The position numbers and the translations under genes are program-made. A stretch of DNA of 64,000 nucleotides from Candidatus Gastranaerophilales bacterium (GTDB taxonomy: Bacteria > Cyanobacteriota > Vampirovibrionia > Gastranaerophilales > Gastranaerophilaceae), in NCBI GenBank assembly GCA_944322855.1, contig CALUQG010000002.1, positions 124,001 through 188,000 of the forward strand. The letters are read 5' to 3'. Each line of letters starts with the position of its first letter. Within the stretch, counting starts at the first letter, position 1. Under the pieces are notes generated by a model. That model did not search any database and was not told where the DNA came from. It saw only the letters and a program-made list of their open reading frames with translations. Positions 1,191 to 28,959 of the stretch are shown here, piece by piece.

Positions 1191-1930
1191 TGGCTGTACC
1201 TAACTTTTTGAAACAGTTTAACCAGTATATGTTTGACCAGTACTCAAAAGACGGTGGAAAACTCCTTATTCATATGGGTGCCGCAGGATGGGTTTTCAGT
1301 TCACTGGCTCAAATTGGTATGCTTCTCGGAGACAAAAGCATTGATAAAAAAGAAAAGAAATTCCTGCTCCCTCAAGAATCAGTTGACGCAGTTGTAAACG
1401 TTTTAATGTCTTATTCGGTATGCGATTTGATTAAAAGAGGCGGAGACCATTTTGTTGAAAACGGAAAATTTGTTACTGACAAAGTTGCTAAAGATATTCT
1501 TGCAATTGCTCCTAAAAATGCAAATTTTGATAAAAACAACTGGAAAGATATTTTTACCAAAGAAGAACAAAAAACTAAAATTTCAAAGCTTTTAGAAAAT
1601 TCTGACAAATTAGATTTTGCAAAAAACTTTAATGAATCTGAGAAGAAAGTTTTGAAAGAAGCAGCTCAAAAAGCTCTTAATACTTTTGAAAATCATAAAA
1701 ACAATGTTGGTGTTGTTACAGCTATCGCTTCTTCTATTCTTGCTTGTAACCTTATCACTCCTTATGTAAGAAACAAAGTTGCATCAAAAGTTCAAAAGAA
1801 ATTGCAGCACAACGAAGATGTTGAAATCAGAAAACAACAAATAAGCAAAAATATTACGATGAAAGGGCCGCTTCCGACATCGTTCAAAGCATTCAACAAT
1901 TACAATACATTTTCCGGTTTGAAAATTTAA
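1190..1930 (+). CDS. Unknown membrane-associated protein, second of the pair
   Basis: The 246-residue product has an ATG that shares its A with the previous stop (TAATG). A hydrophobic N-terminal part (about residues 25-48) and a hydrophobic segment near 165-185 (VGVVTAIASSILACNLITPY) flank a charged, helical middle. The C terminus carries the short string PTSFKAF, which resembles the N-terminal SFKG motif of other unknowns here. No enzyme motif is visible. Translational coupling to the preceding gene suggests a joint role. waaA follows 55 bases on, behind its own good ribosome site. Confidence 0.6.
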   Translation: MAVPNFLKQFNQYMFDQYSKDGGKLLIHMGAAGWVFSSLAQIGMLLGDKSIDKKEKKFLLPQESVDAVVNVLMSYSVCDLIKRGGDHFVENGKFVTDKVAKDILAIAPKNANFDKNNWKDIFTKEEQKTKISKLLENSDKLDFAKNFNESEKKVLKEAAQKALNTFENHKNNVGVVTAIASSILACNLITPYVRNKVASKVQKKLQHNEDVEIRKQQISKNITMKGPLPTSFKAFNNYNTFSGLKI

Positions 1931-11826: not shown

Positions 11827-11948
11827 TCCGCTTAATTAATGATTTTAAACAAATTGTAAACTTATGTAAATTATAAACTAAAAAAACTAAAGAAGCTCAC
11901 TCATTTTGTCGATACAAATAGTACAAGCAATAAGGGGTATGGCACAAA

Positions 11949-26227: not shown

Positions 26228-27166
26228 TTACACAACAATTCTTTTTAAATCGAGAGCATCAATTGTATCATAAATTTTTTGTTTGTATTTATCTGCAACT
26301 TTCTCTCCGACAAAAGCACCAACAGATAAGGCAACAAATAATGCAGGATATTTTATTAAAGGTTTTTTATTCTTAACCGCAATACTCATTGCTGACACAA
26401 AAATTGTCGGAATAAGAGAGTTTGCAAGAAGTTCATAAGTTGTTTTCTTGAGTTTGTTATGATACCCCTTCGTGTCAGCAACATTAAAACCGGTCAAAGC
26501 CATCATAGGTTTTTCCATAACTTTTAAATTTGAATAATCCGTAAGTGTCACAAGCATCCTATTTGCTGTGGCAACAGCAAAATCAGCACCTGGACTAAAT
26601 TTAGAAAAAACTTTGCTGTTTTTGAAATAGCCGTTTTCTTCTTTTTCGGTGTTACTGTTTTGAACTGGTGCTGCAGCCTTTTGATTTGCTTCATCGTTTT
26701 CACTTGAAAACGGAGGCTTTGAAAATACGTACTTATGCATAAACTCATTTGAATAAACTGCCCCCAAAACACCTGCAAACATATTTATTGTTCCGGCGAT
26801 AGATTCTTTTACAATATATTCAGTATATTCTATAAACTTTTCGGTCTTTGCTATTGTATTTTTATTTGTGGACACAGGTGTTTTTTTTAATTTTGCAAGC
26901 AATTTATGAATACCACTAAGAAATAAATTAAAAAAGCTGGTATTGCAAAAGGCTTTTGTTAATGGACTGACAAGTGCAAAAGAAGCTACAGAGCCTGCTA
27001 AAATAGCTGTATCTTTTAACAATATTTTGCTTTTTCGCTCAGGTTTTGCCTTCTGGTAATCCTGATAAGTTTTGTATGCACCTATTCCGACAAACACTGA
27101 CGGGCCGAGGAACCTCGGACTGGTAAAAAAGCTTGTTATAGGTTTTTTGATTGCACCCGGTCTCAT
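26228..27166 (-). CDS. Unknown multi-span membrane protein
   Basis: The 312-residue product has 4-5 hydrophobic segments (near 18-30, 49-70, 127-145, 250-268 and 272-288) separated by basic and polar loops; the loop at about 155-185 is Asn/Glu-rich. No family is recognised. The layout (basic start, paired spans, lysine-rich end) recalls the unknowns at 645-1930. There is no good ribosome site before the ATG. Confidence 0.55.
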   Translation of the reverse strand: MRPGAIKKPITSFFTSPRFLGPSVFVGIGAYKTYQDYQKAKPERKSKILLKDTAILAGSVASFALVSPLTKAFCNTSFFNLFLSGIHKLLAKLKKTPVSTNKNTIAKTEKFIEYTEYIVKESIAGTINMFAGVLGAVYSNEFMHKYVFSKPPFSSENDEANQKAAAPVQNSNTEKEENGYFKNSKVFSKFSPGADFAVATANRMLVTLTDYSNLKVMEKPMMALTGFNVADTKGYHNKLKKTTYELLANSLIPTIFVSAMSIAVKNKKPLIKYPALFVALSVGAFVGEKVADKYKQKIYDTIDALDLKRIVV

Positions 27167-27327
27167 TAATTCTATCTATTCTATCTCTATATATGTTGCA
27201 TATATTACTAAACTGCTGAATATATTTTTTTGTCAGTCTCAACAAAATTTTAATGTAAAGAAATGTAACAGTATATACTCATGTCTGCAATTTTGAAGTT
27301 TGTATATACTTTATATATATGTAAGCA

Positions 27328-27470
27328 TTAAATAAACAAAATCGAGAAAACAAATAAACAATTTCAAATAAGACGAGACTTTCACACTATCAAACACTAA
27401 CCTACCTAACTTCCTAACCTTCCCTTCCTATTAAAAGTATTGCTCTAAGTTAAATTAGAGCTTTTTTTTT
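27328..27470 (+). ncRNA. Candidate small RNA with a C/U-rich segment
   Basis: The 393-base gap between two minus-strand genes has no plus-strand ORF, yet a strong plus-strand terminator ends at 27470. A possible promoter is TTGAAG (27293-27298), 17 bases, TATATG (27316-27321). The predicted ~143-base RNA holds a purine-poor stretch (27371-27432) with CCTAACC, CCTTCCC and TTCCT, complementary to Shine-Dalgarno-like sequences. A regulator acting by pairing is inference. Confidence 0.35.
27442..27470 (+). terminator. Strong plus-strand terminator with no gene before it
   Basis: Perfect 7-base stem GCTCTAA/TTAGAGC, 6-base loop and nine T residues. It has a T run on the plus strand only. Confidence 0.75.
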
Positions 27471-27472
27471 GC

Positions 27473-27499
27473 AAAAAAAAAGGGAGCGATTTATGCTCC
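27473..27499 (-). terminator. Terminator of the AMIN-domain gene
   Basis: On the minus strand GGAGC-ataaatc-GCTCC is followed by C and nine T residues. Confidence 0.75.
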
Positions 27500-27559
27500 G
27501 CATATTGTTGAGTATCGTCTAATTTAAGTTAGGTTAGTTAGTTTTCACTCTCTCTATTT

Positions 27560-28813
27560 TTATACTCTGGACATTTGAGCTTTTCTCAAATTATCCTTTA
27601 AACCCTTTGCAAGATCTGATCTTCCGCTATTTTCATAAATTTTTGTTATTGATTCTAAAAATTTCATACTATCCAAATCTGATTGTTGAGAAGGTGCTTG
27701 TCTATGGCTGCCTGAAATAGGCTGATTACCTCCAATTGACATATTAATTGCCGGTTTTTGAGACTGATTTAGCTTAGGCAAAACAGGTGACATAGGCGAA
27801 TTAACTTTATTATTCAACACATTCTGTTTGAGTGGTGCTGACATATTGTTTACAGGCTGTGCACTCAGGGTTTGTTTTTTAATAGGACTGCTTGATGAAG
27901 ACAACGGCTTTCTTCTGGCAATACCTGATATTCCGTTAGTGACAGTATTAGCCGTTATATAAGGATTTTTCTGACTTTGTTGGTAAGCTTTCATTCCATA
28001 TCCTGCTTTTGTCGCTGGCAATCTGGTTTGAGAAGCTTTACTCAAATTCATATTACCTGCAAGATTTCTATTTATATCTATTTCTCTGTCAAGATTTGCT
28101 CTTGAAGTAAGACCGATTGTTCTTTCAGGTTTAACGGAACCCTGTTTTTTATTTGACTTGAACATAAATGCACCGATTATAAGAATAATGCCAACAACCG
28201 TTGCAAGGTTTATATCACCGTGCAGTGCATTGTTCAAATGATTTGCTGCAGATTTAATATATCTTTTTACGGAAAGCAGCATTTCTTTTGTTATGTGCAT
28301 TTGTGTAAGAACTTCATTCAATTTAGGGTTTGAAGTTTGAGATTCATCTTCTTCAACAAAATTATCAGGATTATATACAGGTGAATAGCTTGATACCGGA
28401 GCATTAAGCTTAATAGACTGATTAACCGGAGCAGGCACTGCTGGGATATCAGTTTTTAAAGTTTCAAAAGAAATTTTGCTGTTAGCAATATCTTTGCCTT
28501 TAAAAGTAATTTTTATATCGTTTTTTGATGCAGGAGATATTGTTACATTGTCTATATTTGCAACATTATTATAAACAGTATTCAAATTTTCTGAGGCTGC
28601 AACATCTTTAAGTTCAATAGACATTTTGTCAGGAGAAGATATTATTTTCTTCATTTGTGCTGCTTCTTCTGTTTTCAGCACAATCCCGTATCCGGAATCC
28701 ATTGAATTTATTTCGACCTCAGAAAGCGTATTTGCGTACACACCAGAAAAGCCGGTGCAAACAATCAACGCAGTTAAAGATAATTTTGTAGCAAATTTCA
28801 CGATACTTCTCAT
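27560..28813 (-). CDS. Secreted AMIN-like-domain protein with one membrane span and a long tail
   Basis: The ATG at 28813 is preferred over a TTG 12 bases earlier. It has a signal peptide (~1-27, ending VYA), an AMIN-like beta domain (about 30-120: SGYGIVLKTEE, PDKMSIELKDV, VTISPASKNDIKITFKG), a linker, one membrane span (about 200-218) with basic residues after it, and a ~200-residue Ser/Asn/Gln-rich tail. AMIN domains localise envelope proteins to peptidoglycan. A FliO-like or envelope scaffold role is possible, but no motif decides it. Confidence 0.5.
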   Translation of the reverse strand: MRSIVKFATKLSLTALIVCTGFSGVYANTLSEVEINSMDSGYGIVLKTEEAAQMKKIISSPDKMSIELKDVAASENLNTVYNNVANIDNVTISPASKNDIKITFKGKDIANSKISFETLKTDIPAVPAPVNQSIKLNAPVSSYSPVYNPDNFVEEDESQTSNPKLNEVLTQMHITKEMLLSVKRYIKSAANHLNNALHGDINLATVVGIILIIGAFMFKSNKKQGSVKPERTIGLTSRANLDREIDINRNLAGNMNLSKASQTRLPATKAGYGMKAYQQSQKNPYITANTVTNGISGIARRKPLSSSSSPIKKQTLSAQPVNNMSAPLKQNVLNNKVNSPMSPVLPKLNQSQKPAINMSIGGNQPISGSHRQAPSQQSDLDSMKFLESITKIYENSGRSDLAKGLKDNLRKAQMSRV

Positions 28814-28959
28814 TTTATTTTCCAATACTCCCCAAATAGGTTTTACTCAACTTAGACAAGACTTTTATTTTGTAACTCAATAATATCTTTTCGGAAATTG
28901 AAAAACATCAATCAGCAGGTTTAAAGTAAATAACTTTTATATAGACCATATGGTTAATA

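Follow-up and report, generated by a model that had tools for sequence, protein, structure and literature searches.

Locus and extent of the unit

Positions 27252-27470 of the window (the whole 64,000-nt stretch of DNA analysed here) almost certainly constitute a small RNA gene, apparently an uncatalogued one. The unit consists of a DNA box, a promoter, an unstructured A- and C/U-rich RNA of ~145 nt and a terminator. On balance, we read its product as a CU-rich, trans-acting regulatory RNA of Gastranaerophilales, non-photosynthetic gut relatives of the cyanobacteria; it is often encoded in at least two copies and would be controlled by RpaB. The RNA gene itself is strongly supported: it is conserved all the way from the box to the terminator, exists in a second copy, keeps the terminator paired across changes, has low coding capacity and lies in varied neighbourhoods. 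The features of the locus are as follows, with mean majority-letter fractions over 45 copies in brackets.

26228..27166, minus strand: divergent neighbour gene, 312 aa; shares its intergenic region with the box
27252..27269, no strand assigned: HLR1-like box AATGTAAAGAAATGTAAC, candidate RpaB site; the other-strand reading fits KTTACAWW-N2-KTTACAWW with 0 mismatches (0.92)
27270..27304, plus strand: conserved spacer with GTATATAC and TGCAATTTT, possible -35 region or site of a second factor (0.82)
27305..27325, plus strand: presumed promoter -10 region TATACTTTATATATATGTAAG; similar motifs occur before other genes of the genome (0.98)
27326..27470, plus strand: small RNA of ~145 nt with presumed start, conserved up to the T run
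27388..27409, plus strand: pyrimidine/A-rich stretch with CTAACCTACCTAA, 5' of the core (0.77)
27410..27430, plus strand: core CUUCCUAACCUUCCCUUCCUA, single-stranded, presumed binding site; perfect in 43 of the 45 copies (0.99)
27442..27470, plus strand: intrinsic terminator with a 7-bp stem and a U tract; pairing kept in 28 copies (0.91)
27560..28825, minus strand: convergent neighbour gene, 421 aa; a terminator of its own stands at 27483-27499

The terminator at 27442-27470 is formed by GCTCTAAGTTAAATTAGAGC and a T run on the plus strand. Both flanking genes lie on the minus strand, and no credible plus-strand gene precedes the terminator; the plus-strand ORFs that are listed for this area are short ones overlapping a minus-strand gene. 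The terminator is thus an orphan on its strand, as had been claimed in the original prediction. The same prediction described 27371-27432 as nearly free of G and rich in C and U, and this agrees with its base composition (C22 A19 T18 G3). It was the sole such stretch in the window, with one on the plus strand and none on the minus strand, under a rule (62 nt, G<=3, C>=20) chosen after 27371-27432 had been seen. The small RNA had been placed at 27293-27470; the RNA gene stands, but this extent was too short, since the unit begins at the box. Neither Pfam nor NCBIfam gave a match to the 312-aa and 421-aa neighbour proteins at E<=0.001.

Conservation and spread

The 2.0-Mb genome that harbours the gene carries it twice, and the second copy is 98% identical over 193 bp. 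A 196-bp query matched all 23 genomes of the genus at E<=2.7e-40; the matches were partial in G003, G007 and G010, where contigs end. Of the 50 copies found with this query, five that were cut at contig ends were dropped and 45 were aligned. The mean majority-letter fraction was 0.71 in the leader and 0.97 in the linker that follows the core, and it dropped in the flanks to 0.49 upstream (9 columns only) and 0.43 downstream (45 copies). The first GTATATAC of the spacer was absent from more distant copies. The invariance of the core is stated from these 45 copies, and loci derived from the exact core are excluded from that claim. The functional part of the RNA is presumably this invariant, unpaired segment.

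The exact core matched 89 stretches, 80 of which were examined; their records were named Gastranaerophilales, Galligastranaerophilus, Melainabacteria or just bacterium. One core-bearing record labelled 'Clostridia' was contig 2 of the genus-mate G004. With model R1 at E<=0.01, a threshold at which a few chance matches are expected across 383 genomes, matches were found in 133 of the 383 genomes and 39 of the 52 genera of the order, while 250 genomes had no match under these strict filters. Genomes of the genus had one to four matches each. In a sample of the phylum, 46 of 194 genomes matched model R1 at E<=0.1, and all of them belonged to the same family.

Diverged members were found in other families of the order. 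Among the weaker matches, of which 20 were fetched and 19 viewed, most from families f2-f5 showed a TGTAA-type repeat, the ACTTTATATAT promoter, the core, and a terminator in other letters. The core was rewritten in some genera of the own family (TTCCTTCCTTCCTA; TTCCTATTCCTACCTTCCTA), where the UUCCU repeats were kept. Five of 17 genomes from other families of the class gave matches at E<=1 (best 0.039), none of them convincing, and the full architecture was seen in 0 of the 4 matches inspected out of 7. One of these families has TGTAAATAAATTGTTAC upstream of CCTCAACCTCCTCCCC and a terminator (L268, ~1501-1565, minus strand; E 0.79), a possible distant analogue.

RNA folding and coding capacity

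The RNA folded no better than its shuffles, and only the terminator stood out. Covariation among the copies was uneven. In 28 chosen copies of one terminator type, with 21 of the other type left out, 92.8% of the cells were paired, compared to 17-56% when the arms were slid, and 20 cells were changed on both sides, compared to 8.2 in shuffles. However, pairs with changes on both sides (2 versus a mean of 2.0) and further pair types (4 versus 5.6) did not exceed the shuffles in the same 28 copies. RNAalifold gave no pair on a mixed alignment of 57, in our view because terminators of the two types align poorly.

The window copy contains neither ATG nor GTG. One of these codons occurs somewhere in 47 of 74 other distinct copies, and a closed ORF of at least 15 codons in 3 of the 74; an ORF of at least 90 aa crosses the core in 1 of 64 contexts. 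Rfam 15 gave no match at the gathering threshold in the window. Three matches at E<=10 were found in 27200-27600, far below gathering (E 0.65, 4.3 and 8).

A candidate RpaB site upstream of the promoter

The box at 27252-27269 fits the RpaB consensus HLR1, the DNA element by which cyanobacteria exert light and redox control, at 16 of 16 non-N positions. The consensus and its position rule were taken from the available portions of PMC13421787 and PMC9241938. Among 92 distinct upstream regions, which are related and not independent sequences, the HLR1 score was 16 in 62, 15 in 10, 14 in 15, 13 in 3 and 11 in 2. Shuffled upstream regions reached 16 in 1 of 1840 cases and at least 13 in 288 of 1840. 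The set of 92 excludes copies with no recognisable promoter or with <85 nt upstream, several of the 20 weak-match loci among them, and includes one row (L142, plus strand) that is probably no true copy. The distance from box to promoter was 55/56 bp in 76 regions, 44-46 in 12, 66/67 in 2 and other in 2, so that the main classes differ by about one helical turn. The box was weaker in the 11 copies scored from the order's other families (16/16 in 1, 13-15 in 9, 11 in 1), and the 55/56 bp spacing was seen in 8 of them.

The window's own genome holds 10 perfect HLR1 sites, two of which belong to the two copies of the small RNA gene. When up to one mismatch was allowed, 70 sites were found, and the reversed pattern gave 36. 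Nine stretches from relatives, which adjoin the gene and sum to 178 kb, held 8 perfect boxes, all of them at the small RNA promoter; the ninth stretch had a box with one mismatch. The start presumed at ~27326 puts the box at about -74 to -57. The activating range of HLR1 in cyanobacteria is given as -45 to -66 in the accessible text of PMC9241938 and PMC13421787; the box is at or just beyond the edge of this range.

An RpaB equivalog (NF045944) was found in the genome with 368.7 bits against a cut-off of 330. Of 40 relatives, 39 had an RpaB match at E<=1e-90, with 79-100% identity. We consider control by RpaB via the candidate box probable. OmpR-family regulators commonly bind direct repeats, and the genome encodes three Trans_reg_C (OmpR-type) proteins, so another regulator of this type might bind the box instead. 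We regard this as a minority possibility, because the RpaB equivalog cut-off is reached by just one of the three, and all 16 defined positions of the published RpaB consensus are matched by the box.

Other sites in the genome were observed in passing. A perfect HLR1-like site at 11853-11870 of the window lies between a divergent FtsH-like gene, as read from its N-terminus, and an uncharacterised gene. According to the available part of PMC13421787, ftsH2/ftsH3 belong to the high-light regulon of RpaB. No ftsH was found in the nine stretches of relatives (178 kb beside the small RNA gene). Variants of the TATACTTTATATATATGTAAG promoter also stand in front of several small proteins in this genome that are uncharacterised (L003, L004, L006, L007, L176-L179), and a TGTAA- or TTAAG-type repeat is often found upstream of these promoters. 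The genes behind TATACTTTATATATATGTAAG-like promoters are a possible regulon.

Predicted mode of action

The commonest use of an unpaired pyrimidine core is base-pairing to purine-rich stretches, and we lean slightly towards base-pairing to mRNAs as the action of this RNA. RpaB would bind the HLR1-like box and set transcription of the small RNA, and the signal to RpaB might be redox or envelope. The RNA would then act in trans: its repeated (C)UUCC(U) blocks would pair with short purine-rich segments in or close to the ribosome sites of selected mRNAs. Such pairing would lower the translation of these mRNAs, and extra gene copies would raise the dose of the RNA.

Anti-Shine-Dalgarno action, which had been proposed from the pyrimidine blocks, is plausible for the core but only partly supported. 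Sites of the AGGAA type form the complement of the UUCCU repeats, and purine motifs of this sort are commoner before starts: AAGGA, GGAGA, AGGAG and AGGAA were found 19, 17, 13 and 12 times before the starts of 159 simple ORF calls, and 1, 2, 2 and 3 times in coding controls. These 159 ORFs came from 71 partly overlapping pieces (273 kb summed), 58 of which had been brought in by motif searches. However, the complement of the core was not in excess. The 12-nt complement RGGRRGGGRRGG, with G:U allowed, had 22 sites compared to 19 for the reversed control. With no mismatch it occurred only on the antisense strand of the two copies, and one mismatch added 20 more places. Twelve of the 22 contexts were read by eye and none resembled a ribosome site; two self-matches and eight G-run sites were left unread. 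One RGGRRGGGRRGG site is antisense within a 608-aa ORF.

Target prediction against ribosome sites, a check named in the original prediction, did not show such pairing. The start-over-coding preference of the core was -0.94 kcal/mol, compared to a mean of -1.52 kcal/mol for shuffled cores, and fell below that of all 60 shuffled cores, in a test of low power in which a typed 16S tail gave only -1.01. Strong duplexes (<=-12 kcal/mol) numbered 16 in start regions and 9 in coding controls. No single target was significant. The rpaB leader was tried as a target; it ranked 4 of 159 and is conserved in the genus, but shuffled RNAs equalled it in 58 of 300 trials (6 of 23 leaders were tested). A MINSL gene (L206) reached -23.1 kcal/mol, but it is present in 2 of the 23 genomes of the genus, with 35% identity in the second one, and it was likewise rejected. 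Hfq, searched with the Pfam model, gave weak matches in 7 of 30 genomes and none above the cut-off; the Synechococcus elongatus control likewise gave none, so a diverged Hfq is possible.

Protein titration is another way in which such an RNA could act. CsrB and RsmY titrate protein by GGA repeats, and the CUUCC/UUCCU blocks could similarly soak up an RNA-binding protein. The repeats sit in an unstructured stretch, they are kept in some genera where the exact core changes, and the mRNA searches gave no target signal, all of which would suit titration. However, the whole 21-nt core, spacers included, is near-invariant in 45 copies, beyond the needs of an array, and there are just three to four repeats and one to four matches per genus genome. 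We judge titration a less likely alternative to base-pairing to mRNAs.

A partner role with another small RNA, as a sponge or decoy pair and not with mRNAs, appears improbable. It is suggested by a minus-strand locus of the same genome (L005, ~1380-1550), where a similar promoter is followed by a short segment that contains GGAACGGGAATAGG and has a terminator. The predicted duplex of L005 with the core is -15.3 kcal/mol; however, 20 of 500 shuffled cores reached that value, which is weak statistics for a locus chosen by eye.

Genomic contexts and copy number

The neighbourhoods were compared in 64 contexts, after those with <900 nt on either side had been dropped. The protein family of 26228-27166 is the upstream neighbour in 17 of the 64. 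The gene downstream is not constant in either family or strand; it faces the RNA in 30 of the 64, as it does in the window. A conserved single-stranded stretch followed by a terminator might suggest a cis-acting leader or attenuator of the downstream gene, yet this variation and orientation make such a role highly improbable, and for the convergent cases it is largely refuted.

Two loci recurred across species: locus A adjoins the 26228-27166 gene family (17 of the 64), and locus B adjoins a protein of 120-136 aa (9 of the 64). The copies are more than one per genome and near-identical within several genomes, but a mobile or repetitive element with no regulatory function is hardly credible, since the same gene families adjoin them in different species, there are only one to four matches per genus genome, and the box and the terminator form their edges.

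Copies A and B of the same genome shared 95.8% mean identity (6 pairs), compared to 83.3% between A copies of different genomes (78 pairs). In some species, this suggests conversion or more than one round of copying. Within-genome likeness is not general, since the sister copy was the closest relative in 9 of the 18 genomes compared, the third copy of G020 being excluded. In 11 of the 18, the two copies were <98% identical, down to 69.5%. In one copy of G020, ~104 bp separate the promoter part from the rest of the gene (L056, 2659-2764).

Comparison with known systems

LisR is a regulator of the OmpR type. In the text available from PMC4132741, LhrC1-5 of Listeria are described as several near-identical copies with redundant CU-rich target motifs and LisRK-dependent transcription, and LhrC binds lapB mRNA directly and impedes its translation. 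The RNA described here is similar in having two copies of 98% identity in its genome, repeated single-stranded CU-rich motifs and a proposed two-component-type switch in the place of LisRK. It differs from LhrC in its phylum and in its HLR1-like box, and the likeness is one of logic.

PsrR1 is a small RNA in the RpaB regulon, according to the portions of PMC13421787 and PMC12850537 available. Both are small RNA genes with RpaB control, which here is a candidate one. Unlike PsrR1, the present gene has its box upstream of the promoter and a host whose relatives are described as non-photosynthetic. Cyanobacterial HLR1/RpaB promoters such as atpT (PMC9241938, as far as its accessible text goes) likewise have a direct repeat upstream of the promoter, and an RpaB equivalog is present in our genome as well, whereas our candidate site reaches somewhat beyond -45 to -66. 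We assign the RNA neither to LhrC nor to PsrR1; by analogy, it resembles them in logic or in switch. Yfr1, and anti-Shine-Dalgarno RNAs such as alpha-r14/cuckoo, share with it an unpaired pyrimidine-rich motif and a final terminator. None of these RNAs was among the three weak Rfam matches (E<=10) in 27200-27600.

We know of no role for RpaB in Gastranaerophilales. RpaA, RpaB and NblS have been reported in non-photosynthetic Melainabacteria, where another function was considered possible (PMC3787301), and their orthologs in all three orders studied (PMC4040986), both as given in the available text. In the literature on Melainabacteria, Gastranaerophilales and Vampirovibrionia, as far as its accessible portions go, we found no such RNA, nor any bacterial small-RNA study. 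What is new here is a full HLR1 match upstream of a small RNA gene, together with an RpaB equivalog in the same genome. The gene is a concrete candidate for an RpaB output in a non-photosynthetic lineage, and, provided that the box is real, it is relevant to the role of a light-response regulator in the absence of light.

A broader reading is that the circuit of RpaB, HLR1 and small RNA predates oxygenic photosynthesis or arose independently of it, with the CU-rich RNA as a main conserved RpaB output in the non-photosynthetic sister lineage. The light and redox wiring of cyanobacteria, in which RpaB has a small RNA arm such as PsrR1, would then have been built on an older stress circuit. We hold this only as a speculative and rather unlikely reading, because outside the family the box was full in just 1 of the 11 scored copies.

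Additional observations

The original prediction also noted a related sequence in reverse sense at 27526-27537. AAGTTAGGTTAG is indeed present there, but it is part of the 3' end of the transcript from the opposite gene, next to a separate conserved motif; the CTAACTAACCTAACTT part of it was found in 2 of the 4 species seen. On the minus strand at 27474-27556, the transcript from the convergent gene carries the conserved motif GACGATACTCAACAATAT in its 3' end, shortly 5' of its terminator. The motif was seen in four species (the window, L043/L128, L097 and L122), and 27474-27556 is possibly a 3'-UTR-derived small RNA. In L182-L183 (at the contig start) and L187-L188, repeats with AGGAGAGGAAGG stand ~106-109 bp apart just 5' of putative tRNA genes, and each AGGAGAGGAAGG repeat holds a piece that resembles a tRNA 5' end.
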